Assembly: GCF_028737195.1 (NCBI RefSeq)
Contig: NZ_JAQZAJ010000002.1
Coordinates: forward strand, 372,001-436,000
From: Pseudovibrio exalbescens
Lineage (GTDB): Bacteria; Pseudomonadota; Alphaproteobacteria; Rhizobiales; Stappiaceae
Length of the DNA stretch: 64,000 nucleotides
Direction of reading: 5' to 3'
Shown piece by piece: positions 1,938 through 13,018 of the stretch; the first letter of the stretch is position 1, and every line of letters begins with the position of its first letter. Both the position numbers and the translations under genes were made by a program. The notes under the pieces are model-generated. The model had not been told where the DNA came from and ran no database searches. It saw nothing but the letters and a program-made list of their open reading frames with translations.

Positions 1938-3161
1938 ATGAGCACAACAGCATTTCAAGGTGATGAAGCGGCAAGTCTTGCGAGCACGCCAACATTCACC
2001 AACGACCAGATCGCAGACCAACTGACCACGGGCTATTGGCAAGCCAATGGTCGCCCAACCCGTTCGTTTGATGTCGGTTCAGATGGCGTCCTGACGGTGA
2101 ACCTCTCGGGTCTTACGAACAAAGGCGCGTTTTATGCGTATTATGCGCTCCAGCTCTGGTCAGATGTTACGGGTATTGAGTTTGTTCAAACCCGTGGCAC
2201 GGCGGATATCACCTTTGACGACAATGACAGGGGTGCCTATGCCTACTCAGACCTTTCGGGCAACACGATTACAGCCTCTTATGTGAACGTGTCGACTTCG
2301 TGGATCTCTCGAGATGGTTATGATCTGAACAACTATTCGTTCCAGACCTATGTCCATGAAATCGGTCATGCGTTGGGCTTGGGCCATGCCGGAAACTACA
2401 ATGGCAGCGCAGACTATGGCATCGACAACGACTATACCAACGACAGTTGGCAAGCCTCGATCATGTCCTATTTCAGCCAGACCGAGAACACGTCAATTGA
2501 TGCCACGTTTGCGTATGCTCTCACACCTCAAGTCGCAGACATCATCGCCATTCAGAACCTCTACGGCACAACGGGTACCACCCGGACTGGCGATACTGTT
2601 TACGGCGATGGTGCAGACTCTGGAGATGCGCTTGCCTACATTACGCGCATCGACGAAGCCGTCACGTTCACCGTTTTGGACGATGGCGGCTACGACACCT
2701 TCAATTTCAGCAGTGTTTCTCAAGATCAAGTCATCAACTTGAATGAAGAGGCCATCTCGAGTGTTCGGGGTCACACCGGTAACATGATGATTGCCCGTGG
2801 CACAGAAATTGAAGCAGCCGTGGGTGGCAATGGCGATGACGTGATCATCGGCAACGCATTAGACAACACCCTTGAAGGTGGTGGCGGCAACGACACCCTG
2901 ACTGGTGGCGCTGGGGCTGATGTCTTCGTTTTCGATGCGACCACGCAAGGCTTCGGCGATCGCGATACAATCGTCGACTTTGAAGACGGTATCGATACCA
3001 TTCTGATTGACGATGGTTCGTCCTTCTCAACGGCCAGCTTTGACCTCCTGGAGTTTCTCAGTTCAGGTTTTGACACCAGCATTTCTTGGGGCAATTCAAC
3101 CATCACCCTTGAGAATGTGAGCATTGCCCAACTGGATCAAAGCGACTTCGCGTTTGCTTGA
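1938..3161 (+). CDS. serralysin-like M10 zinc metalloprotease with RTX repeats
   Basis: An extracellular metzincin protease of 407 residues, a little shorter than typical serralysins (about 450-480). The catalytic domain has the zinc motif HEIGHALGLGH at residues 140-150 and the Met-turn SIMSYF at 174-179. The C-terminal part has glycine/aspartate nonapeptides (GGNGDD, GGGGND, GGAGAD) near residues 296-328, which bind calcium, followed by an acidic end typical of type I secretion substrates. There is no Sec signal peptide, as expected. No inhibitor gene and no ABC/MFP/TolC secretion genes lie nearby, so export must rely on a transporter elsewhere. Its AT-rich upstream region suggests tight or silenced expression. 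Confidence 0.93.
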   Translation: MSTTAFQGDEAASLASTPTFTNDQIADQLTTGYWQANGRPTRSFDVGSDGVLTVNLSGLTNKGAFYAYYALQLWSDVTGIEFVQTRGTADITFDDNDRGAYAYSDLSGNTITASYVNVSTSWISRDGYDLNNYSFQTYVHEIGHALGLGHAGNYNGSADYGIDNDYTNDSWQASIMSYFSQTENTSIDATFAYALTPQVADIIAIQNLYGTTGTTRTGDTVYGDGADSGDALAYITRIDEAVTFTVLDDGGYDTFNFSSVSQDQVINLNEEAISSVRGHTGNMMIARGTEIEAAVGGNGDDVIIGNALDNTLEGGGGNDTLTGGAGADVFVFDATTQGFGDRDTIVDFEDGIDTILIDDGSSFSTASFDLLEFLSSGFDTSISWGNSTITLENVSIAQLDQSDFAFA

Positions 3162-3377: not shown

Positions 3378-3408
3378 TTGACATGAACACTGATTCAGGT
3401 TTCATATA
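3378..3408 (+). promoter_or_regulatory. Candidate sigma-70 promoter of the Liv-type operon
   Basis: A consensus -35 TTGACA lies at 3378-3383. The best -10 candidates are the overlapping TTCATA and TCATAT, 17-18 bases further on. Transcription would start near 3414, leaving a leader of about 80 bases before the binding-protein gene. The rest of the 3162-3493 gap holds the terminator above and nothing else I can name. Confidence 0.5.
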
Positions 3409-3493: not shown

Positions 3494-4690
3494 ATGGCGT
3501 CTCTACTGAGACAGCTGGCGGCTTCTGCGCTGGCTGGAGTTTTAGCCGTTTCTGCAGGCGCATTCTCGGCGCAAGCAGATCCAATCAAAATCGCACATGT
3601 CTATGGTAAGACAGGTCCTTACGAGGCCTACGCCAAACAGTCGCATGTTGGCCTGATGATGGGGCTGGAATATGCCACTGAAGGCACCATGGAAATCAAT
3701 GGCCGCGAAATCGTCGTCATTGAAAAAGACACGCAGTTGAAGCCAGACATTGGCAAAGCTGTTCTGGCCGAAGCCTACGGAGACGATGAGGTCGATATCG
3801 CCGTCGGTCCCGTATCTTCCGGTGTGGCGCTGGCAATGCTTCCGGTAGCGGAAGAATATGAGAAGATCCTCATCGTCGAGCCTGCGGTTGCAGACAGCAT
3901 CACCGGCTCCAACTGGAACCGCTACGTCTTCCGCACCGGTCGCAATTCATCTCAAGATGCCGTTGCAAATGCTGTCGCGCTTGGTGCCGAGAACGTCTCC
4001 ATTGCAACGCTGGCGCAGGACTATGCATTCGGCCGCGATGGGGTGGCAGCCTTCAAGGAAGCGCTGGCAGGCACCGGTGCCAAACTGGTGTTCGAAGAAT
4101 ACGCCCCAACCGACACCAAGGATTTCACCGCGAGCGCACAGCGCATTTTCGACGCCTTGAAAGATGAGCCAGGCCGCAAGTTCCTGTTTGTCATTTGGGC
4201 TGGTGGGGGCAATCTGATCAGCAAGGTGCAGGCCATGGAGCCGGGCCGTTTTGGCATTGAAATTGCCACGGGGGGCAACATCCTTGCAGCCATGAAAGCC
4301 TACAAGGCTTTGCCGGGTATGGAAGGCGCCACCTACTACTACCATGACATCCCTCAGAACCCGGTGAACGAGTGGCTGGTCTCCGAACACCAGAAACGTT
4401 TCAACGCGCCGCCGGATTTTTTCACTGCGGGCGGTATGACGGCAGGTCTTGCGATTGTTGAGGCCATCCGAAAGGCAGGGTCCACCGACACCGAAGAGCT
4501 GATCGCAGCCATGGAAGGTATGGAATTCGACACCCCCAAGGGCAAGATGCTTTTCCGTCCGGAAGACCATCAGGCTCTGCAGGCCATGTACCACTTCAAG
4601 ATCAAGGTTGATCCGGATGTGGAGTGGGGCATTCCGGAGTTGGTGCGCGAGCTGTCCATTGAGGACATGAACATTCCAATCCGCAACTAA
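3494..4690 (+). CDS. branched-chain amino acid-type ABC transporter, periplasmic binding protein
   Basis: A 398-residue class I periplasmic binding protein of the Leu/Ile/Val-BP fold (HAAT family). The N-terminus has an Arg, a hydrophobic core and an AQA-D cleavage site, so it is Sec-exported. The mature part opens with IKIAHVYGKTGPYEAYA, typical of the ligand cleft edge. I chose the ATG behind GGGGAGGAA rather than the in-frame TTG six codons earlier, which lies on top of that ribosome site. It is the first gene of the importer operon. The family binds amino acids, amides, urea and many aromatic or aliphatic acids, so the ligand is open. The downstream CoA genes favour a carboxylic acid. Confidence 0.88.
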   Translation: MASLLRQLAASALAGVLAVSAGAFSAQADPIKIAHVYGKTGPYEAYAKQSHVGLMMGLEYATEGTMEINGREIVVIEKDTQLKPDIGKAVLAEAYGDDEVDIAVGPVSSGVALAMLPVAEEYEKILIVEPAVADSITGSNWNRYVFRTGRNSSQDAVANAVALGAENVSIATLAQDYAFGRDGVAAFKEALAGTGAKLVFEEYAPTDTKDFTASAQRIFDALKDEPGRKFLFVIWAGGGNLISKVQAMEPGRFGIEIATGGNILAAMKAYKALPGMEGATYYYHDIPQNPVNEWLVSEHQKRFNAPPDFFTAGGMTAGLAIVEAIRKAGSTDTEELIAAMEGMEFDTPKGKMLFRPEDHQALQAMYHFKIKVDPDVEWGIPELVRELSIEDMNIPIRN

Positions 4691-4702
4691 CCAGCCAACA
4701 AA

Positions 4703-4745
4703 GGAGGAGCAGGGCGTCTCACAACGTGCATCGCCTTGCACCTCC
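4703..4745 (+). promoter_or_regulatory. Stem-loop between binding-protein and ATPase genes
   Basis: GGAGG at 4703-4707 can pair with CCTCC at 4741-4745, enclosing a small hairpin GTGCA-TCGCCT-TGCA(C). It sits in the 132-base gap behind the binding-protein gene, where ABC operons often carry a hairpin that stabilises the upstream mRNA. The GGAGG is a strong ribosome-binding sequence with no convincing gene behind it. Confidence 0.4.
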
Positions 4746-4822
4746 ATCGTTTCCTGCGCTTTCCAGCGGTCGGCCGCCGGATTGTCGGGTGAAGTGCATC
4801 TTGTCGGGGCGGGAACTGCAAC

Positions 4823-5593
4823 ATGACTGAAGAACATCCAATACTTGAAACGCGGGATCTGACCATTCGCTTTGGTGGGCATGTCGCGGTAGATCACGTG
4901 AGCTGTGCGTTCAAGCGTGGCACGCTTACAGCAATTGTCGGGCCGAATGGCGCAGGGAAGACCACATATTTCAATCTCATCTCCGGCCAGCTGAAGGCAT
5001 CCGCGGGGCAAGTCATCCTGAACGGCGCTGATATCACCCGTGCGTCCGTTCCAGAGCGGACGGATCGTGGCATTGGCCGCGCCTTCCAGCTCACCAACCT
5101 GTTTCCCTCCCTGTCCGTGCGAGAAAACGTGCGTCTGGTGGCACAGGCCAAGGCCGGATTGGGTTTTGACATGTTTTCCGTTGCCGAAAGTCACATTGAA
5201 CTCATAGAGCGTGCGGAGCACGTGCTGGCGGAAGTCAATCTGATCGATTCCGGCGAGCAGATTGTCTCGGCATTGCCGCATGGGGACCAGCGAAAGCTGG
5301 AAGTGGCGCTCATGATCGCCTTGGGGCCGCAAGTGCTTATGTTTGATGAGCCGACTGCAGGTATGAGTGTTGATGAGGTGCCGATCATTCTGGATCTGAT
5401 CAAGTCCCTCAAGCAGGACATTGACCGCACCATCCTGCTTGTGGAGCACAAGATGGACGTGATCCGGTCGCTGGCAGATCGCATCATCGTCTTGCACAAC
5501 GGGGCCCTTGTTGCTGATGGCGACCCTGCGGAGGTGATTGCCTTGCCCGTGGTGCAAGAGGCCTATCTTGGCAAAGTTCCGGAGGCCGCGTGA
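4823..5593 (+). CDS. ABC transporter ATP-binding protein, LivG type
   Basis: A 256-residue cytoplasmic ATPase with Walker A GPNGAGKT, the Q-loop region FQLTNLFPSLSVREN and Walker B LMFDEPTAGMS. The signature segment reads LPHGDQRKLEV where LSGGQ-like sequence is usual, as in LivG proteins. The LivG-specific insertion after the Q-loop (residues about 105-130) is present. It should pair with the LivF-type subunit. The stop codon overlaps the next start by one base. Confidence 0.92.
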   Translation: MTEEHPILETRDLTIRFGGHVAVDHVSCAFKRGTLTAIVGPNGAGKTTYFNLISGQLKASAGQVILNGADITRASVPERTDRGIGRAFQLTNLFPSLSVRENVRLVAQAKAGLGFDMFSVAESHIELIERAEHVLAEVNLIDSGEQIVSALPHGDQRKLEVALMIALGPQVLMFDEPTAGMSVDEVPIILDLIKSLKQDIDRTILLVEHKMDVIRSLADRIIVLHNGALVADGDPAEVIALPVVQEAYLGKVPEAA

Positions 5594-6318
5594 TGAAAGA
5601 GCCTCTTCTCACCCTCTCTGGTGTTCACACTCATATTGGCCCCTATCACATTCTTCAGGGCGTGGACCTTGTTGTTCCCAAGGGGGGCGTTTCCGTTCTT
5701 TTAGGTCGTAACGGAGCCGGAAAGACCACCACACTTCGCACCATCATGGGCCTTTGGCAGGCCAGCGAGGGCACGATTCTGTTTGAAGGGCAGGACATTA
5801 CCAAACTGCCAACCCCAGAGATCTCACGCGCAGGCATTGCCTTTGTGCCGGAAGACATGGGCATCTTCACAGATCTGACGGTGGCGGAAAACATGACCCT
5901 TGCAGCAGCACGCGGACCGCTGGATCCCGATCGCCTTGAGTGGATCAAGACATTGTTTCCGCCAATCCGCACCTTCTGGGAGTCCTCGGCCGGAACCCTG
6001 TCTGGTGGCCAAAAGCAGATGCTGTCGGTTGCTCGCGCCATCATTGAGCCGCGCAAGCTGATCTTGATTGATGAGCCGACGAAGGGTCTGGCGCCGGCCA
6101 TTATCAAAGCCATGAGTGACGCACTTCTGGAGTTGAAGGAAACGGACACCACAATCCTCTTGGTGGAACAGAATTTCTCCATGGCCTCAGCTGTTGGAGA
6201 CACCGTTTCAGTCATGGATGACGGACACATCGTTCATGCGGGCGAAATGGCCGAACTTGCTGGTGACGCTCGGATGCAGGAACGACTTATGGGATTGAGC
6301 CTGGAGGCCCACCAATGA
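5593..6318 (+). CDS. ABC transporter ATP-binding protein, LivF type
   Basis: A 241-residue ATPase with Walker A GRNGAGKT, signature LSGGQKQML and Walker B LILIDEPTKGLAP, the last typical of LivF. I start it at the ATG that overlaps the livG stop by one base. A GTG directly before it is possible but adds one residue only. It overlaps the next gene by four bases (ATGA), so the subunits are translationally coupled. Confidence 0.92.
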   Translation: MKEPLLTLSGVHTHIGPYHILQGVDLVVPKGGVSVLLGRNGAGKTTTLRTIMGLWQASEGTILFEGQDITKLPTPEISRAGIAFVPEDMGIFTDLTVAENMTLAAARGPLDPDRLEWIKTLFPPIRTFWESSAGTLSGGQKQMLSVARAIIEPRKLILIDEPTKGLAPAIIKAMSDALLELKETDTTILLVEQNFSMASAVGDTVSVMDDGHIVHAGEMAELAGDARMQERLMGLSLEAHQ

Positions 6319-7343
6319 GCGACACAACAATCAAGCCGCGCATTGAAAAAGCGCCTGTTCTTGAGCGCATCACCACTGCGCTTCCAATTGCACTTGTACC
6401 CGTTCTGGCGGTACTGGGGTTCGTTGCCATTGGCGATCCCGCCGCCTGGCTCACCCTCACTGTGGCCGGTTTGGCCATGGGGTTGATGATCTTCATCATG
6501 GCATCGGGCCTGACCGTCGTCTTCGGCCTCATGGACGTGATCAATTTCGGCCATGGAGCGTTTATCTCCGTAGGCGCGTTTGTTGGCTTCTCCATTCTCA
6601 TTTGGCTTGGTGGCTGGACGGCTTCCAGCAGTGTGTTCTTAAACCTTGCCGCCGTTTTCCTCGCCATTCTGGTTTCGATGGTGGCCACTGGGCTCATGGG
6701 CTATGCGTTTGAGCGGGTGATCGTCATGCCGGTTTACGGCCAGCACCTGAAGCAAATCCTTGTGACCATGGGCGGGCTTATCGTGGCCCAGCAGCTCATT
6801 CATGTGTTCTGGGGGCCCGATGAAATTCACGTGGCACGGCCAGAAAGCCTGCGCGGCTCCATCGTTATTGGTGAGGCAGCTATTGAAAAGTATCGTCTCG
6901 TTGCGGTCGGCATCGGCGTTGCCTTGTTTCTGGCCATGCGCCACGTCTTGAAGTCTACCAAGATTGGCCTCTTGGTTCGCGCCGGTGTTGAGAACGGCGA
7001 GATGGTCGAAGCCTTGGGATATCGCATTCGCCGCTTGTTCCTCATCGTCTTCATGGTTGGCTCAGCGCTGGCCGGGCTCGGCGGCGTCATGTGGGGGCTC
7101 TATCAGGAAACCATCACCGCCCACATGGGCTCGGAAATCATGGTGCTGGTGTTCATCGTGGTCATCATTGGCGGCCTTGGCTCCGTAGAGGGCTGTTTCA
7201 TCGGCGCGCTACTGGTTGGTTTGCTGTCTAACTACACGGCGTTCCTCGCACCAAAGGTGGCTCTCGTATCCACCATTGCGCTCATGGTCATCATCCTGAT
7301 GTGGCGTCCTCAGGGGCTTTACCCCGTCGTCAAGGCAAAGTGA
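6315..7343 (+). CDS. branched-chain amino acid-type ABC permease, LivH type
   Basis: A 342-residue inner-membrane permease with about eight to nine hydrophobic helices. It carries the LivH-like segment GLMDVINFGHGAFISVGAF near residues 70-90 and an EAA-like loop around GYRIRRLFL. The C-terminus has GGLGSVEGCFIGALLVGLL, also typical of the family. It should form the transmembrane pore with the LivM-type subunit encoded next. Confidence 0.9.
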   Translation: MSDTTIKPRIEKAPVLERITTALPIALVPVLAVLGFVAIGDPAAWLTLTVAGLAMGLMIFIMASGLTVVFGLMDVINFGHGAFISVGAFVGFSILIWLGGWTASSSVFLNLAAVFLAILVSMVATGLMGYAFERVIVMPVYGQHLKQILVTMGGLIVAQQLIHVFWGPDEIHVARPESLRGSIVIGEAAIEKYRLVAVGIGVALFLAMRHVLKSTKIGLLVRAGVENGEMVEALGYRIRRLFLIVFMVGSALAGLGGVMWGLYQETITAHMGSEIMVLVFIVVIIGGLGSVEGCFIGALLVGLLSNYTAFLAPKVALVSTIALMVIILMWRPQGLYPVVKAK

Positions 7344-7354
7344 GGCACAGACAA

Positions 7355-8416
7355 ATGCTGAAAACTCTCCTCTCAGGTGACAATCCTCGCAGCAAAGTGT
7401 TGAGCCTTGTTCTGCTTGCGGTTGTCATTTCGCTGGCGTTGGCACCCTTTCTGTTTCCGGGCACCAAATCACTGGAAACGGCGGCGCGCATCTGCATCTT
7501 CATTGTTCTGGTGGCCAGCTACGATCTGCTGCTGGGCTATGCGGGTATCGTGTCGTTCGCCCACACCATGTTCTTTGGCATTGGAGCCTATGGAACGGCC
7601 CTCGCGTTGTCAGCTACCGGGCCAACGTTCCTGTCGATCCTCTGGGGCACAGGTGCAGGTGTGGTCATCGCTGCCGCCTTCGCGCTGGCGATTGGTCTTT
7701 TCTCCCTGCGGGTAAAGGCAATCTTCTTCGCCATGGTAACGCTGGCTGTGGCCAGCGCCTTTGCCATTGCCGTTTCTCAAGCCTCTTGGCTCACAGGTGG
7801 TGAGGATGGCCTCAATTACCGTATTCCGCGAGAACTCACACCTGCCTTCAAACTTTTGCCGGACAAGGTTTTCGGCGTGCGCATCAATGGCAAGCTGCTG
7901 AACTACTATCTGGTCTTCTTTTCCTCCGCGATCCTGTTCATCGTCATGCTCCGCATCGTGAACTCGCCCTTTGGCCGCACGTTGCAGGCTGTGCGCGACA
8001 ACGCGTTTCGGGCAGAGGCTATCGGCTATCGCGTTATATGGTATCGCACCACGGCAACGGTCCTTTCCGCGGTCATGGCAGCTTTGGCCGGGTCTCTGCT
8101 TGCCATCTGGCTGCGCTACACGGGCCCGGCCACCACTCTTTCCATGGAGATCATGATTGATATCCTTCTGATGGTGGTGATCGGCGGCATGGGAACCATG
8201 TACGGCGCCATATTGGGCGCAACCATCTTCATTCTGGCGCAAACCTATCTGCAAAACCTGATGGGCGTGGCAGCTGACGCCACCAGTTTTGTGCCGTTCA
8301 TCTCTCATCTGGTGGAGCCGGAACGTTGGCTCTTGTGGCTTGGGGTGCTCTTCATTCTGTCGGTCTATTTCTTTCCAAGCGGCATTGTTGGTCGGCTTAG
8401 AGAAATGAAATCATGA
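7355..8416 (+). CDS. branched-chain amino acid-type ABC permease, LivM type
   Basis: A 353-residue inner-membrane permease. The first acceptable ATG (MLKTLL) lies 11 bases after the livH stop with GAGG in front; the in-frame GTG further upstream would overlap livH and is less likely. Features are the conserved segment LLLGYAGIVSFAHTMFFGIGAY near residues 50-70, many hydrophobic helices, and the C-terminal GGMGTMYGAILGA. The last bases overlap the following hydrolase start (ATGA), which ties that enzyme to this importer. Confidence 0.9.
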   Translation: MLKTLLSGDNPRSKVLSLVLLAVVISLALAPFLFPGTKSLETAARICIFIVLVASYDLLLGYAGIVSFAHTMFFGIGAYGTALALSATGPTFLSILWGTGAGVVIAAAFALAIGLFSLRVKAIFFAMVTLAVASAFAIAVSQASWLTGGEDGLNYRIPRELTPAFKLLPDKVFGVRINGKLLNYYLVFFSSAILFIVMLRIVNSPFGRTLQAVRDNAFRAEAIGYRVIWYRTTATVLSAVMAALAGSLLAIWLRYTGPATTLSMEIMIDILLMVVIGGMGTMYGAILGATIFILAQTYLQNLMGVAADATSFVPFISHLVEPERWLLWLGVLFILSVYFFPSGIVGRLREMKS

Positions 8417-9204
8417 CTTCCAAACTGTATTGGCGGGAGGAGGGCAGTGGTTCACCCCTGGTCCTTCTCCACGGCTGGGCGTGCCATGGTGGTTTCTTTG
8501 AGGAGCAGGTGAGGGCGCATCGCGGCAGGGCACATGTTCTGGTGCCTGATCTTCCGGGCCATGGCCAAAACCTCAATGCCGCAGAGCTCACCATTGAGGC
8601 CGCGGCAGACGCCGTGTTTGCCGAGTTGGAGCGCCGAAATCTAAGGGATGTCACTCTGTGCGGTTGGTCCATGGGGGCCCATGTGGCCTTTGCCTTGGCG
8701 CAGCGGCACGGCACCAATCGGATCCGACAGTTTGTGGCAGTTGATATGGCGCCGAAGGTTCTAAACGATCCGGAGTGGCCGTTCGGCTCATTGGGCGGGC
8801 TGGACGAAGCCCGTAATCACCACTTGCTGGCAACGCTGGTCCCGAGCTGGGCGGGGCTGGTTCCCAAAATCGCGCAGCGCATGTTCGCCACTGGCGCGCC
8901 CTGTGATCCGGGCAAGCTCATGCATGCAGAAGAAGAAATCCGCCGCGCCAACCCAGAGTTATTAAAGCCCATGTGGGCGTCGCTCACTACGCAGGACTTT
9001 CGTTCGCTCGTCACAGCTTTAGGAAAGCCGCTTCATTTGGTGTTTGGGGGACAAAGCGCCCTTTATGGCGCTGGAACGCGCAATTGGTATCTGGACCATG
9101 TTCCCGGAGTGGAACTCAATCTGTTTGAAGCAGCGGGCCACAGTCCCCATCTGGAAGACCCCGAGCGCTTCTCACAAGTGCTTGGAGCCCTTCTGGCCTC
9201 GTGA
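8413..9204 (+). CDS. alpha/beta hydrolase translationally coupled to the importer (BioH-like fold)
   Basis: A 263-residue cytoplasmic alpha/beta hydrolase. It has the oxyanion motif LLHGWACHG near residue 20, the nucleophile elbow GWSMG (Ser 86) and a terminal histidine in AAGHSPHLEDP (His 243). The strand that normally presents the catalytic aspartate reads VFGGQSALYG, without Asp, so the acid may be displaced or absent. Sequence style recalls BioH, but no biotin genes are near. The four-base overlap with the LivM-type gene suggests it acts on what the importer brings in, for example an ester or lactone. Function is inferred from context only. Confidence 0.8.
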   Translation: MTSKLYWREEGSGSPLVLLHGWACHGGFFEEQVRAHRGRAHVLVPDLPGHGQNLNAAELTIEAAADAVFAELERRNLRDVTLCGWSMGAHVAFALAQRHGTNRIRQFVAVDMAPKVLNDPEWPFGSLGGLDEARNHHLLATLVPSWAGLVPKIAQRMFATGAPCDPGKLMHAEEEIRRANPELLKPMWASLTTQDFRSLVTALGKPLHLVFGGQSALYGAGTRNWYLDHVPGVELNLFEAAGHSPHLEDPERFSQVLGALLAS

Positions 9205-9207
9205 AAA

Positions 9208-9230
9208 GCCCGGCAAAGAGCCGGGCCTCT
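9208..9230. terminator. Terminator between convergent operons
   Basis: A perfect stem GCCCGGC-AAAGA-GCCGGGC is followed by CTCTTTG on the plus strand and preceded by GAAAA, so it can act in both directions. It fills the 39-base gap between the importer/hydrolase operon and the opposing CoA operon. Confidence 0.8.
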
Positions 9231-9243
9231 TTGTCTCATTGGA

Positions 9244-9615
9244 TCACTCTTTGCCCACGTCTTCCACGTAGACCAGAGCGCGTCCTTCGCAGACGAGCGT
9301 ACCGGTCTGAGTGGTGCATACAGTTGCCAGATCCACCAGGTGTTTTTCGGGCCGCAGCCGCGTCACCGTCACGCGGGCAGTCAGCGGTTCGTCGAGAGGA
9401 GCATCCTGCAGGAAGTTCAAATCCTGCTTGAGATAGTTGGTGCCACGTCCGGGCAACTTGACTCCCAGAAGGTAAGAAAACAGCGCCCCAATCAGGGGCC
9501 CCGGCACGGTGCTGTAGTGACCCGGTACAGTGCCTGCCTGACGGGCAAAGTTGGACATGTCTTGTGAGCTGAAGCTACGCGTGATCTCAGCAAATGCGCC
9601 AAGTTCCAGTTTCAT
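9244..9615 (-). CDS. MaoC-like hot-dog protein, degenerate active site (candidate non-catalytic subunit)
   Basis: A 123-residue protein with the size and pattern of a single hot-dog domain. It starts MKLELGAFAEITRSFSSQD and its ATG overlaps the stop of the preceding MaoC gene (ATGA). Where catalytic MaoC hydratases have a GD-NPIH segment and a later HG-M segment, this protein reads RQAGTVPGHYSTVPGPLIG; the Asp/His pair is not recognisable. It therefore probably serves as the structural partner of the protein encoded just upstream, as in heteromeric MaoC hydratases of steroid catabolism (ChsH1/ChsH2). An independent thioesterase-like role is possible. Confidence 0.75.
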   Translation of the reverse strand: MKLELGAFAEITRSFSSQDMSNFARQAGTVPGHYSTVPGPLIGALFSYLLGVKLPGRGTNYLKQDLNFLQDAPLDEPLTARVTVTRLRPEKHLVDLATVCTTQTGTLVCEGRALVYVEDVGKE

Positions 9616-9995
9616 GCCGCGCCTCCTGAGAGTAAGCACTCTCCCGTCAAAACAGGCTTGTTGTCTGTCCCTCGTTTCGCCTCCAGAACGATCTTGTTCG
9701 GATCTTCTTCCGATGACGTGAGGCTGAAAATCACTTCTTCGCCCGCATAGGTCGGATTGGGAAACACAAGAGCCTGAAATGCGTGTTCGAAGTCCGGCCA
9801 CTCTCTTTTAAGCAGGCCAAACAGGCGTGTGTAGAGCAACATGCCATGTGACACGGTGCGTCCAAACCGTGTCCGCGCGGAAAACTCCGGGTCAACATGA
9901 ATTGGATTGTCATCACCTGACAGTTCGGCAAAATCATCAAAGTCTTGCTGCGTTGGAACCCAGCGTTCTTGAATGCTCTGGTTCAGGACGCTCAT
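9612..9995 (-). CDS. MaoC family (R)-hydratase, catalytic type
   Basis: A 127-residue single hot-dog protein with the full hydratase signature FAELSGDDNPIHVD followed by TRFGRTVSHGMLLY, giving the catalytic Asp and His of R-specific enoyl-CoA hydratases. It would add water to a trans-2-enoyl-CoA, or remove it from the 3-hydroxy form. Its start overlaps the acyl-CoA ligase stop by one base and its stop overlaps the second MaoC gene by four, so the three proteins are made in coupled fashion. The natural substrate is unknown. Confidence 0.88.
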   Translation of the reverse strand: MSVLNQSIQERWVPTQQDFDDFAELSGDDNPIHVDPEFSARTRFGRTVSHGMLLYTRLFGLLKREWPDFEHAFQALVFPNPTYAGEEVIFSLTSSEEDPNKIVLEAKRGTDNKPVLTGECLLSGGAA

Positions 9996-11527
9996 CAGAC
10001 CTCCTCCGCTTCATTGGTAAACGTGTTTTTCAAGATATTCTTGCGCACTTTGCCTGCAGCTGTGCGTGGCATTTCATCGACCACTTGAAAGCTCTTTGGC
10101 ACTTTGTAGGCGGCTAATCGTTCACGGCACCACCCGGTCATGTCAGCGGTGTTCAGGTCAGCGCCTGGGCGCTCAATCAGGAAAGCAGCCCCCACTTCGC
10201 CCCACTTGGCGTCCGCGACACCAATCACCACGGCTTCCAAAATGGCTGGATGCGTGGTCAGAACCTTCTCTACTTCCGCGGGGTAGACGTTCTCGCCACC
10301 GGAGATGTACATGTCCTTGATGCGATCAATGATATAGTAGTAGCCATCTTCGTCGCGCTGGGCGATATCGCCGGATTTTAGCCATCCGTCTGGCGTAAAG
10401 GTTGCTGCAGTCGCCTGCGCATTTCCCATGTATCCGGGCGTAATTCCCGGCCCCCGTAGCTGGAGTTCGCCAGTCCCGGCACCTTCAACAATGCGGCCGT
10501 CGACACCCTCAAGACGCACATCCGTCAGCATTTGCGCCTTGCCCACAGACCCGACCTTGAGTGGCGCGCTGGCTTTGTCCATCAAGAACACGGTTGGTCC
10601 GGTCTCGGTCATGCCCATGCCATTGCAAATAGTTGCGCCCCGTTCCATGAACTCTGTCAGGAGGTGCGCCGGGATGGGCGCGCCGCCACAGCCCAAAGAG
10701 TTGAGCTTGGTGAAGTCCACGTCATCAATGCGCGGATGCAGCGAAAGCGCTTGGTAAATCGCAGGCACGCCGAAGAAAGCGCTGACTTTACCTCCGGCCA
10801 AGAGATTAATTACCGCATCTGCATCAAACTTGCGCAGCACCGTGGAGCAGCCCCCAGCCAGAAACAGGGGCAGGGTCAACAGGTTGATGCCAGCCGTATG
10901 AAACAGCGGCAAGAAGTTCACACTGGTATCGGTGCTGGTAAGGTCGACGGCCTGACCATAGTTGACGGCATTGGCCCAGGCCATCCCCGCCGTTTGGATC
11001 ACAGCCTTCGGGTTGCCTGTGGTGCCAGAGGTGTAGAGCAGGTACCAAGGCGCATTGCTCGCAATGGGGCGAGCCTCTGGCGAATTTGCAGGGGCGGCGG
11101 CCATCATTGCGCTCAAGTCGTGTTCGCCGTCTCCCTCCAGATTGCACAGAGGCAGATCGACGCGTGCTTTCAGGTCATGCGCCGCCTCAGAAAAAGCGTC
11201 ATCGTGGATCAGCAGCGTCGCCTCTGACAATTTCAGGATCGGCTCCAGCTCGGCTACGGGTTGACGCCAGTTCAGCGGTACGAGAATGAGGCCGGTCTTC
11301 TGTGCTGCAAACAGAATGGAAAAGAACTCAACATGGTTGAGGCACAAAATGGCAACCCGGTCCCCGGTTTGTAAACCCATGTGCGCAAGGCCTGCAGCGA
11401 TGCGTTCTGCCTGCTCATTGAGGGCGGCAAAGGTGAACTCCTGCCCGCTCTCCAAATCAATAAACGCCAATGCGTGCGGCGAAAGCCCTGCGCGCTTTGC
11501 CGCCATATCTGTAACCCATTCCATCAT
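9995..11527 (-). CDS. acyl-CoA synthetase (AMP-dependent ligase)
   Basis: A 510-residue ANL-superfamily ligase. It has the phosphate-binding loop LLYTSGTTGNPKA near residue 170, the hinge region IDRIKDMYISGGENVYP near 410, and the C-terminal catalytic lysine motif PRTAAGKVRKN near 490. The usual reaction is acid + ATP + CoA to acyl-CoA + AMP + PPi. No acyl-chain-specific signature can be read by eye. It is the second structural gene of the tetR-led operon and would activate the acid before the crotonase and MaoC steps. Confidence 0.9.
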   Translation of the reverse strand: MMEWVTDMAAKRAGLSPHALAFIDLESGQEFTFAALNEQAERIAAGLAHMGLQTGDRVAILCLNHVEFFSILFAAQKTGLILVPLNWRQPVAELEPILKLSEATLLIHDDAFSEAAHDLKARVDLPLCNLEGDGEHDLSAMMAAAPANSPEARPIASNAPWYLLYTSGTTGNPKAVIQTAGMAWANAVNYGQAVDLTSTDTSVNFLPLFHTAGINLLTLPLFLAGGCSTVLRKFDADAVINLLAGGKVSAFFGVPAIYQALSLHPRIDDVDFTKLNSLGCGGAPIPAHLLTEFMERGATICNGMGMTETGPTVFLMDKASAPLKVGSVGKAQMLTDVRLEGVDGRIVEGAGTGELQLRGPGITPGYMGNAQATAATFTPDGWLKSGDIAQRDEDGYYYIIDRIKDMYISGGENVYPAEVEKVLTTHPAILEAVVIGVADAKWGEVGAAFLIERPGADLNTADMTGWCRERLAAYKVPKSFQVVDEMPRTAAGKVRKNILKNTFTNEAEEV

Positions 11528-11566
11528 GCCCTCCCCGCATGTTTGTGAGTCTGATCCTCTTGAAAC

Positions 11567-12340
11567 TTAGTGCCTGTTGGTGAAGCGCTGCATTCCTTCT
11601 CGGGTGTCTGGCGCGGATATGCGCTCCAGAAAACGCGCCTTTTCCTGATCCAGCCGAGCCTTCACTTGGGCGCGGCGCGGCGCATCCCAGACGTTTGCCC
11701 GTGTCGCGGCGAGTGTACTGGCGTTCATCTCCCGAATGCCGCCAAGCCATTCTTGAATGCCCGTGTCCAGCTCCTCTGTTTCAACCACGCGGCTCGCCAA
11801 TCCCAGTGAAACGCATTCCTCAGCGCTGAGCCGAGTGTTGAGGTACTGCACCTCCAGCGCTCTGGCCGTTCTAATCTTTTCCGGTAGAAGTGCCGTCCAG
11901 CCGCCATCTGGGCCAAAGCCCACCACACCGTAGTAGGGTTGGACGAAGGCGCGCTGGCTCATGATCACCATGTCGCTAGCCAGAACAAATCCCACCGAGC
12001 CTCCGGTCACGGGGCCATTTACCCGCGCGATCACCGGGGCCGGGAATGCCAGCAGCTTCATGAGTGCATCATGCAGGCCGCCCACAACCCGTTCCGAGTA
12101 AGCCCGTAGCTGTTCCGGGTCGCTCGCAGCCTCCAGAAACGCGCCTACGTCGCCACCAGTCGAGAAGCTTCGGCCTTCCCCGGTCAGCACCAACGCCCGC
12201 GGCGCAGCCGCTTTAGCCGCCTCAATGGCCCTGTGAAGATCGTCAAGCACCTCGGGCACCAGAGCATTATGGCGCTCTGGGCGGTTGAGGCGAATTTCAG
12301 CCCAGTCATCATGAAGGGTCAGCTTGACGAGTTCAGTCAT
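11567..12340 (-). CDS. enoyl-CoA hydratase/isomerase (crotonase) family protein lacking both hydratase glutamates
   Basis: A 257-residue crotonase-fold protein. It has the N-terminal RLNRPERHNAL segment and the oxyanion-hole region NGPVTGG. Classical hydratases have one catalytic Glu after GGG and a second in a PE segment. Here the first position falls in GGSVGF and the second reads QPYYGVVGF, so both are missing. An Asp in GFGPDGG (residue 145) sits where isomerases of the PaaG/ECI type and CoA dehalogenases keep a catalytic acid. Isomerase or another crotonase reaction is therefore likelier than hydration, which the MaoC proteins could supply. One base separates it from tetR. Confidence 0.85.
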   Translation of the reverse strand: MTELVKLTLHDDWAEIRLNRPERHNALVPEVLDDLHRAIEAAKAAAPRALVLTGEGRSFSTGGDVGAFLEAASDPEQLRAYSERVVGGLHDALMKLLAFPAPVIARVNGPVTGGSVGFVLASDMVIMSQRAFVQPYYGVVGFGPDGGWTALLPEKIRTARALEVQYLNTRLSAEECVSLGLASRVVETEELDTGIQEWLGGIREMNASTLAATRANVWDAPRRAQVKARLDQEKARFLERISAPDTREGMQRFTNRH

Positions 12341-12341
12341 G

Positions 12342-12968
12342 TCAGGAAGGCCTCAGTCCGTTGACGATCAGATCGTGGGTGGTCTCAACGATGTCATCGA
12401 CAGGGGTCTCGTCTCCCCAGATCACGGCCCGCTCTCCGAGTGCTCGAGCCATCCCCATGAGAGCCCAGGCGCGCGTATGCGCATCTCCCGGGCTCACCTG
12501 CCCAGCTTCAGCCGCAGCAACGAGTCCCTCCCGATAGCCATCGGCAAAAGTGTCGTAATAGGCTTTGTAAGCGTCCGGGGCCACAAACATGGCCTCCTGC
12601 ACAACGCGGTAGAGATCCGGGTGAGCGCGCACAAACTCCAAAAACGCCTTCAAGCCAGCCTTTTCTGCGGCCAGCCGGTCTGTTGCATCCCGTGCCACAG
12701 AGGAAAGCTCCCGGCGCACGAGTCGGCCCATTTCAATCACCAGCTCGTGAAACACTTCCTCTTTGCTTTTGAAGTAGATGTAAAACGTGCCTTGGCCCAC
12801 GCCCGCTTCTCGCGTGATGTCGCCAATGGAAGCCTCGTTGTAGCCTTGCGCGCCTATCACGCGTTCTGCTGCGGTCAGGATTGCTTTTTTTGTTGCTTCA
12901 CCGCGGGCTGTTTTTGGCTTGGTCGGCGCTTTTGCCCGCCCTGCGGTGGCGTTTTGGGATCGCGGCAA
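12342..12968 (-). CDS. TetR family transcriptional regulator of the CoA operon
   Basis: A regulator of about 208 residues with a basic N-terminal tail rich in Ala/Lys/Pro and a clear TetR helix-turn-helix (KKAILTAAERVIGAQGY ... ASIGDITREAGVGQGTFY). I chose a TTG start because GGAG lies seven bases before it. An ATG 39 bases upstream would put the start codon inside a perfect palindrome and has no ribosome site. It is the first gene of the operon and the palindrome just upstream is its likely operator, so autorepression released by an acyl-CoA is plausible, as in other TetR regulators of fatty-acid genes. Confidence 0.85.
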   Translation of the reverse strand: MPRSQNATAGRAKAPTKPKTARGEATKKAILTAAERVIGAQGYNEASIGDITREAGVGQGTFYIYFKSKEEVFHELVIEMGRLVRRELSSVARDATDRLAAEKAGLKAFLEFVRAHPDLYRVVQEAMFVAPDAYKAYYDTFADGYREGLVAAAEAGQVSPGDAHTRAWALMGMARALGERAVIWGDETPVDDIVETTHDLIVNGLRPS

Positions 12969-12994
12969 GCTCACTCTCCGGTTTGACAATGTTG

Positions 12995-13018
12995 AAACAT
13001 GAATCACTATTCATGTTT
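12995..13018. promoter_or_regulatory. Perfect palindrome, probable TetR operator
   Basis: Ten-base arms AAACATGAAT and ATTCATGTTT are exact inverted repeats around a CACT spacer. The site lies 27 bases upstream of the TTG start chosen for the adjacent tetR gene, where a promoter for the minus-strand operon is expected. Confidence 0.7.

Follow-up and report, generated by a model that had tools for sequence, protein, structure and literature searches.

A Liv-type importer operon and a facing acyl-CoA ligase operon of Pseudovibrio exalbescens as a probable TetR-controlled system for short-chain polyhydroxyalkanoate breakdown products

Two operons converge at positions 3494 to 13018 of a 64,000-nucleotide stretch of contig NZ_JAQZAJ010000002.1 of the marine bacterium Pseudovibrio exalbescens, the whole of which is called the window below. 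One encodes a Liv-type ABC importer and an alpha/beta hydrolase, and the other encodes a TetR-type repressor, a crotonase-fold protein, an acyl-coenzyme A (CoA) ligase and two MaoC proteins. Sequence comparisons support the view that the two operons form a single co-regulated pathway, on the basis of a shared operator, co-occurrence across genomes and physical linkage, and it is probable that this TetR-controlled system uses the short-chain breakdown products of polyhydroxyalkanoates (PHA), either (R)-3-hydroxybutyrate (3HB) itself or short oligomers of it. The preliminary description of the region had proposed a common pathway, a proposal borne out by these three lines of evidence, but had assigned no substrate; the PHA hydrolases encoded beside the importers of relatives now point to 3-hydroxyalkanoates. 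The features concerned are as follows.

3381..3400, no strand: putative TetR operator before the importer, ACATGAACACTGATTCAGGT, 0 mismatches to the pattern
3494..4690, + strand: periplasmic binding protein (Peripla_BP_6; signal peptide by eye; closest solved relative 3n0x/3nnd)
4823..5593, + strand: importer ATPase 1, LivG/UrtD-like (domain and family match)
5590..6318, + strand: importer ATPase 2, LivF/UrtE-like (domain and family match)
6315..7343, + strand: importer permease 1, LivH/UrtB-like (BPD_transp_2)
7355..8416, + strand: importer permease 2, LivM/UrtC-like (BPD_transp_2)
8413..9204, + strand: alpha/beta hydrolase, predicted cytoplasmic oligomer or ester hydrolase (GWSMG nucleophile elbow; no signal peptide by eye)
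9208..9226, no strand: hairpin between the converging operons, likely terminator (GCCCGGC/GCCGGGC, T-rich tail)
9244..9615, - strand: MaoC1, MaoC-like (LPGRGTNYLKQ kept, GDxNxxH catalytic motif lost)
9612..9995, - strand: MaoC2, proposed catalytic partner (hydratase-2 motif SGDDNPIH)
9995..11527, - strand: acyl-CoA ligase (AMP-binding; family match), proposed (R)-3-hydroxyacyl-CoA synthetase
11567..12340, - strand: crotonase-fold protein (D145 corresponds to the PaaG aspartate; G117 and Y137 stand where PaaF has the hydratase glutamates)
12342..12968, - strand: TetR-type repressor (TTG start chosen)
12997..13016, no strand: putative TetR operator before tetR, palindrome ACATGAATCACTATTCATGT, a pattern match in the genome scan

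All of these genes have intact reading frames, and their spacings uphold the preliminary account of a complete importer with a coupled hydrolase that faces tetR and the crotonase, ligase and two MaoC genes. In the importer operon a gap of 132 bases after the binding-protein gene is followed by spacings of -4, -4, 11 and -4 bases, and in the facing operon the spacings are 1, 39, -1 and -4; 4-base overlaps link the genes for the ATPases, the first permease and the hydrolase in the one operon and the two MaoC genes in the other. The importer has the five-part architecture of the Liv/HAAT type, with a binding protein, two ATPases and two BPD_transp_2 permeases encoded in one operon. Neither an acyl-CoA dehydrogenase nor a thiolase is found among the eleven genes of the two operons, in agreement with the earlier statement that the set is not one for ordinary beta-oxidation. 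The TTG start was taken for the TetR gene because a GTG start at 13007 would overlap the operator. The shared terminator that had been described between the operons corresponds to a hairpin with a T-rich tail in the inter-operon gap of 39 bases (fold z = -2.1), but terminator-like sites in the region number 15, against 10.7 in shuffles, and a terminator at 9208-9226 is plausible rather than proven. The paired palindromes, the one-sided MaoC motif and the loss of both hydratase glutamates from the crotonase go beyond what had been noted before.

The palindrome at 12997-13016, before tetR, recurs without mismatch at 3381-3400, before the importer, and in a whole-genome scan its sole other exact match lies inside a reading frame; the matches to the operator pattern elsewhere in the genome are at C11:441249 and C1:745813, both inside reading frames, and at C11:889214 (L194). 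When 30 importer-bearing genomes of known operon status were searched with up to two mismatches and to 60 bases past the start, the operator was found before the binding-protein gene in 15 of the 16 that carry the ligase operon, the window's own included and L033 being the single miss, and in none of the 14 that do not; the Fisher value of 2e-7 treats genomes as independent, which they are not, and 13 of the 14 operon-free genomes belong to the window's own genus. Shuffled upstream regions reach the same threshold in 0.2-0.8% of cases. In genome G020 the operon lies about 160 kb from the importer and the importer still has its site, so the operator is tied to the repressor and not to distance. 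A first version of the test, which took operon presence from the fetched stretch and ended the search at the start codon, gave 37 of 49 loci with the operon against 20 of 75 without it. Those 20 loci comprise 18 of the window's family and two metagenome-assembled genomes of Tepidamorphus; their operon may lie outside the fetched stretch, and it is present at genome level in G020, G028, G032 and G036. Several of the 12 misses have a site just inside the aligned start. In a sample of 385 Alphaproteobacteria (the class sample), sites with at most two mismatches were found in six of the eight MaoC1-bearing genomes besides the window's own, against none of the nine examined among the 16 importer genomes without MaoC1. 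The exceptions are L151, with three mismatches, and L156, with five, where operon and importer are read in one direction with the importer second; L165, in which a ligase and TetR but no MaoC1 were found, has two mismatches and was counted apart. The arrangement suggests that the TetR protein binds both palindromes.

Linkage was assessed in 109 binding-protein loci (29 come from the 60 relatives, and 80 are the best of 367 in a genome collection), which reduce to 92 non-redundant loci chosen by binding-protein similarity. The ligase or TetR of the operon stands beside the importer in 35 of the 92, in four arrangements (downstream and facing in 23, downstream in the same direction in six, upstream in the same direction in five and divergent in one), so the linkage survives rearrangement. 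The hydrolase is present in 34 of these 35 loci and in 16 more without the operon, and the remaining 41 have neither. In the 61 genomes formed by the window's own and its 60 relatives, 30 have an orthologous binding protein, and the 16 in which the ligase occurs (E <= 1e-100) all belong to these 30 (hypergeometric probability 7e-7). In the class sample, where the search for the binding protein scored only four candidates per genome, MaoC1 occurs in 11 genomes and the binding protein in 25, and the nine genomes with both have them within 5 kb of each other (2e-10); both probabilities assume independent genomes, an assumption that does not hold. The two MaoC1 genomes without the importer, which belong to one genus, retain the genes for TetR, the ligase and the two MaoC proteins, and the hydrolase gene is adjacent. 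MaoC2 was found in 8 of the 398 genomes of a phylum sample, where importer and operon occur together at the window's own locus, L167, L168, L169 and L173, the operon alone in the stretch at L170 and L172, and neither at L171. The joint presence across relatives that had been suggested as a check therefore holds from the side of the operon, which is accompanied by the importer in 16 of 16 and in 9 of 11 genomes, and fails from the side of the importer, which lacks MaoC1 in 16 of 25. Since the operon is mostly found with the importer and the importer often without the operon, their independence is one-sided: the ligase operon usually accompanies the importer, and the importer can work without it.

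The substrate is indicated by PHA enzymes that are encoded inside orthologous importer operons. In G738, which lies outside the Alphaproteobacteria, genes for TetR, the binding protein, two ATPases, two permeases, the ligase, a 3HB-oligomer hydrolase, MaoC2 and MaoC1 form one run, and the oligomer hydrolase matches PF10605 over its full length with 1093 bits. The binding protein occurs in 5 of 120 genomes of G738's family; four of the five have a run of this type and the fifth has its parts at two contig ends, and each of the five contains a single oligomer-hydrolase match (E <= 1e-60). The Cupriavidus metallidurans member is described in a genome paper as an orthologue of the oligomer hydrolase of strain H16 (PMC2864759). 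In the orthologous importer operons the PF10605 matches exceed 1000 bits, and the proteins carry a lipobox, as judged by eye. In the order to which these genomes belong, which we take to be the Burkholderiales, the binding protein was found in 22 of 280 sampled genomes. Examination covered 21 of these loci, the other lying at a contig edge, and six of the 21 have PHA hydrolases in the importer operon: a 3HB-oligomer hydrolase at L173 and L203, a hydrolase together with a depolymerase at L198, and a depolymerase at L202, L210 and L211. The oligomer hydrolases of L198 and L203 represent two further genera. At L198, L202, L210 and L211, from three genera, the depolymerase gene sits between the binding-protein and ATPase genes; the model for extracellular type 2 short-chain-length PHA depolymerases (NF050059, cut-off 280) gives 371 bits at L198, 386 at L211 and 400 at L202, and the L210 copy, 84-89% identical to that of L211, matches Esterase_PHB. 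The L210 operon continues with genes for a thiolase, a CoA ligase and a protein like 3HB dehydrogenase (PRK12429, 259.5 bits against a cut-off of 258; below the TIGR01963 cut-off), with a TonB receptor opposite. TonB-dependent receptors are encoded at L172 (4120-6405) and L210 (9809-12262), next to the hydrolase gene or facing that of the binding protein, and it is possible that they are the outer-membrane entry for oligomers. A 3HB dehydrogenase also occurs in the half of the binding-protein tree to which the window belongs, beside the importer at L143, on a Mariluticola plasmid (TIGR01963, 369.8 bits, cut-off 307), and about 2.4 kb from it at L057, the two being 68% identical. A candidate of the same kind at L200 was rejected as a generic short-chain dehydrogenase/reductase (SDR; TIGR01963, 216 bits, cut-off 307).

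The enzymes of the two operons are compatible with such a substrate. All 49 of 49 MaoC2 rows have the GDxNxxH motif of (R)-hydratases, and MaoC2 aligns with the front of the (R)-specific hydratase 1iq6, while MaoC1 aligns with the rest of 1iq6, keeps the motif L-P-G-x-G-T-x-x-x-K-Q and has lost GDxNxxH in 55 of 58 rows. The MaoC1 proteins of L173, L178 and L179 are the exceptions and carry both motifs, which suggests descent from a complete hydratase whose active site was later lost; the two proteins would form a complex that acts as one hydratase with one working active site. For the crotonase, the residues with catalytic roles that serve as reference are E109 and E129 of Escherichia coli PaaF and D144 of PaaG. 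Glycine stands in the place of E109 in 47 of 48 rows and tyrosine in that of E129 in 48 of 48, while the PaaG aspartate is kept in all 48. The two catalytic glutamates of enoyl-CoA hydratase 1 are thus absent, and their replacement argues that the protein is no ordinary hydratase. An epimerisation from (R) to (S) by MaoC and crotonase together was dropped for the same reason. The crotonase gene is also missing from the fetched stretch at L059, L130, L131, L134, L138, L145, L152-L154, L165 and L172, some of which end at a contig edge (L145 and L153 are taken to be the same plasmid). At L168 an NHL-repeat protein of 823 amino acids is encoded between crotonase and ligase (5565-8036). The hydrolase, which has no signal peptide by eye, keeps S86 and H243 in at least 95% of 50 rows. 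Many loci that lack the ligase operon have a different alpha/beta hydrolase, ABH2, at the importer, and at L168 an esterase of the hormone-sensitive-lipase type follows MaoC1; where the hydrolase is missing another esterase can stand in, and an ester step beside the importer is thus frequent. In the window, an esterase of the hormone-sensitive-lipase type (Abhydrolase_3) is encoded at 591-1526, on the importer's strand and two genes upstream of it; its best NCBIfam match, LipP1 (258.8 bits, cut-off 350), is also the best family of the L168 esterase. A serralysin-type metalloprotease with an RTX repeat (Peptidase_M10_C, HemolysinCabind) is encoded at 1938-3161.

The proposed mechanism begins with an extracellular depolymerase, the organism's own or a neighbour's, which would free 3HB oligomers that a surface or periplasmic hydrolase would trim in some species. 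The Liv-type importer would carry 3HB or short 3HB oligomers inward, the coupled alpha/beta hydrolase would cut the remaining ester bonds in the cytoplasm, the ligase would form (R)-3-hydroxyacyl-CoA, and the MaoC2/MaoC1 pair would dehydrate this to 2-enoyl-CoA for ordinary beta-oxidation, with the crotonase-like protein as an optional isomerase. TetR would sit on one palindrome per operon and presumably be released by a CoA ester of the pathway; at loci linked to a 3HB dehydrogenase instead, import of this kind would supply acetoacetate. The cytoplasmic location of the hydrolase favours oligomers over the monomer as the imported form. Gene content, the common palindrome, co-occurrence, residue patterns and the PHA enzymes of orthologous operons are computational results; the binding of TetR to the palindromes, the substrate in the window, the direction of each reaction, the MaoC complex and the inducer are what we infer here. 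Of the steps that had been predicted, uptake, ester hydrolysis and CoA activation are retained; since the relatives point to 3-hydroxyalkanoates, the MaoC step is more likely a dehydration of (R)-3-hydroxyacyl-CoA than a hydration, and isomerisation is an accessory step at most, because the residues of a hydratase are missing from the crotonase and several loci have no crotonase gene.

The binding protein bears on the class of ligand. It scores 64 bits against the Liv model, which has a cut-off of 477, and its closest solved relative is 3n0x/3nnd (E 6.8e-186), on which a literature search returned no relevant paper. In the search of 61 genomes, identity is at least 57% for the orthologous binding proteins and at most 32% for the other matches listed; relatives at 50% exist elsewhere. 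LivJ contacts its amino acid at S79, A100, T102, Y150 and E226. Among 145 binding proteins, S79 is kept in all 145, A100 is replaced by proline in 144, T102 by valine in 144, Y150 by phenylalanine in 145 and E226 by isoleucine in 138, and the window's own protein has valine and isoleucine at the places of T102 and E226, so that of the alpha-amino-acid contacts S79, T102 and E226 the last two are lost. These positions hardly vary among the 145, whether the members are linked to the ligase or to PHA enzymes, a pattern that speaks against amino acids as ligands and in favour of a single ligand class for the whole family; recognition of an amino acid, which had been named as a finding that would count against a common pathway, is thus made less likely by the sequence. 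In a tree built from 73 of the 145 rows, the PHA-linked members share a single clade with members linked to the ligase or to ABH2; the window falls in the sister half. Ligase linkage requires at least five changes on this tree, both halves of which contain the ligase-MaoC operon; one genus has it alongside the oligomer hydrolase. At L146 (Haematobacter), a binding protein of 50% identity stands with a beta-oxidation set of acyl-CoA dehydrogenases, thiolase and ligase, and the outer binding-protein family seems from this locus also to handle acids.

Other genes recur near the importer. Ten loci of the Pseudovibrio type without hydrolase and ligase operon (L044, L049, L094, L096, L102-L105, L107 and L110) have a gene of the bile acid:sodium symporter family (BASS) inside the importer operon, between the binding-protein and ATPase genes; the L049 member scores 174.8 bits on TIGR00841 (cut-off 326.3), and the importer at these loci may serve a different fate. 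An SDR and an aldehyde dehydrogenase recur near the importer in Pannonibacter and some roseobacters, but at L113 they stand beside a peptide-type importer; the pair is not counted as part of the system. Sigma54-type regulators are found near the importer at L143, L057, L095, L135, L204, L206, L207 and L208.

Several observations weigh against a PHA-derived substrate in the window. Because the PHA-linked clade is sister to the window's half of the tree, the assignment crosses a deep split. PHA hydrolases occur in just 9 of 163 fetched binding-protein loci (duplicates included), in one tree clade, and beside the importer in no fetched alphaproteobacterial locus; 15 of the 21 loci examined in the presumed Burkholderiales have neither PHA hydrolase, and the window's operons contain neither an oligomer hydrolase nor an extracellular depolymerase. 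PF10605 was unmatched in the 61 genomes (G000 included), and control genomes likewise gave no match. The depolymerase-family matches of the window's own genome are below cut-off, with 37.6 and 25.7 bits on TIGR01840 (cut-off 107.85) and 69.5 and 39.7 on NF050058 (cut-off 150), so its organism would be a scavenger of products made by others; a match to a PHB-depolymerase family (PHB, poly-3-hydroxybutyrate, a natural bioplastic) above cut-off occurs in only one of the 16 ligase-operon genomes. A member of NF050059, a model with which no whole-genome search was made, would probably be visible in the TIGR01840 search, where three members score 49.8-65.4 bits. PF10605 relatives on three plasmids of Microvirga and Pseudomonas luteola adjoin genes for AtuA and for citrate or tripartite tricarboxylate (TTT) transporters, so the family name alone is no proof. 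At L153, L154, L170 and L172 the fetched stretch shows the operon without an importer. The solved structures closest to the ligase bear the names feruloyl-CoA synthetase and fatty-acyl-CoA synthase. At L189-L191 the plasmids carry a repeated set in which a gene of the oligomer-hydrolase family is accompanied by LysR, AtuA, a small protein and either a TTT binding protein or a citrate symporter; this set may belong to another hydroxy-acid ester pathway.

A rival reading is that the importer lineage is a general one for 3-hydroxy or other short carboxylic acids or esters, with PHA use restricted to a branch outside the Alphaproteobacteria and a different hydroxy-acid ester as the substrate in the window. 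The confinement of PHA-hydrolase-linked binding proteins to one clade, the absence of such a hydrolase from all fetched alphaproteobacterial loci, the importers that stand without the ligase operon, with a BASS gene in Pseudovibrio relatives, and the 50% relative with its beta-oxidation genes all fit this alternative, but it is judged unlikely, because the ligand-site positions are alike family-wide, linkage to a 3HB dehydrogenase is seen in the part of the tree to which the window belongs, and both halves contain the ligase-MaoC operon, which one genus combines with an oligomer hydrolase. An uptake system for phenylpropanoid esters of the ferulate or coumarate type, in which a feruloyl esterase and a feruloyl-CoA synthetase would be followed by hydration and cleavage by the crotonase, is less probable still. 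Liv-type importers for aromatic acids exist, and the structures nearest to the ligase are 8weu and 8wev, the latter named feruloyl-CoA synthetase; the crotonase, however, lacks the hydratase glutamates, scores 79.9 bits on the p-hydroxycinnamoyl-CoA hydratase/lyase model (cut-off 276) and is missing from several loci, and no recurring aromatic-pathway gene was found among the identified neighbours, which are a minority of all neighbours. That a branched-chain amino acid importer merely adjoins an acid-degrading operon, as the database name of the permeases and the family-level match to Liv and urea importers might suggest, is scarcely credible in view of the binding protein's Liv score, the changes at T102 and E226 in nearly all of the 145 relatives and the operator in common with the ligase operon.

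Within the use of PHA breakdown products by a single system, a more specific proposal is advanced tentatively: the importers may constitute a dedicated ABC family for polyester oligomers, in which intact (R)-3HB oligomers are imported, hydrolysed inside, activated with CoA and dehydrated by a two-part MaoC enzyme in place of a 3HB dehydrogenase, all under one TetR. If so, bacteria that do not depolymerise the polymer themselves would live on bioplastic fragments released by others. The uptake of extracellular PHA depolymerase products by bacteria is poorly described, and a conserved importer and CoA module in Alphaproteobacteria and other Pseudomonadota would mark users of PHA fragments in sea and soil, while the paired operators make the regulon directly testable.

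Each part of the system is of a known kind. The literature searched describes neither their combination, nor this substrate class for a Liv-type importer, nor the MaoC pair, and no published description of the combined system was found there, most subscription papers being outside the reach of the search. LivJ/LivK-FGHM and UrtABCDE, of the HAAT type, share the five-part architecture and the domain families, and the window's binding protein keeps the serine of LivJ S79; in contrast to these systems, the window's importer scores far below the curated levels, has lost amino-acid contacts and is linked to ester and CoA enzymes. The MaoC pair can be compared with the PhaJ-type hydratase 1iq6, to whose two parts MaoC2, with the catalytic motif, and MaoC1 correspond, except that the window has two short genes in a catabolic operon; the paired hydratase HadAB offers a further comparison, with a weak score (24.7 bits). 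The hbtABC system of Ruegeria pomeroyi, compared here by description, shares the proposed substrate class and has three genes (SPO2571-2573) against five components in the window. One paper describes it as the sole bacterial uptake system confirmed for 3-hydroxybutyrate (PMC10130141). The enzymes of the route by which PHB users employ 3HB-oligomer hydrolase and extracellular PHA depolymerase (PF10605, NF050059; PMC2864759) are encoded inside orthologous importer operons, whereas both are absent from the operons of the window, where the small cytoplasmic hydrolase would perform the ester step. The closest solved binding protein, 3n0x/3nnd, was deposited as a 'possible substrate binding protein'; the module would give it a testable ligand and would correct the 'branched-chain amino acid' label of the permeases.

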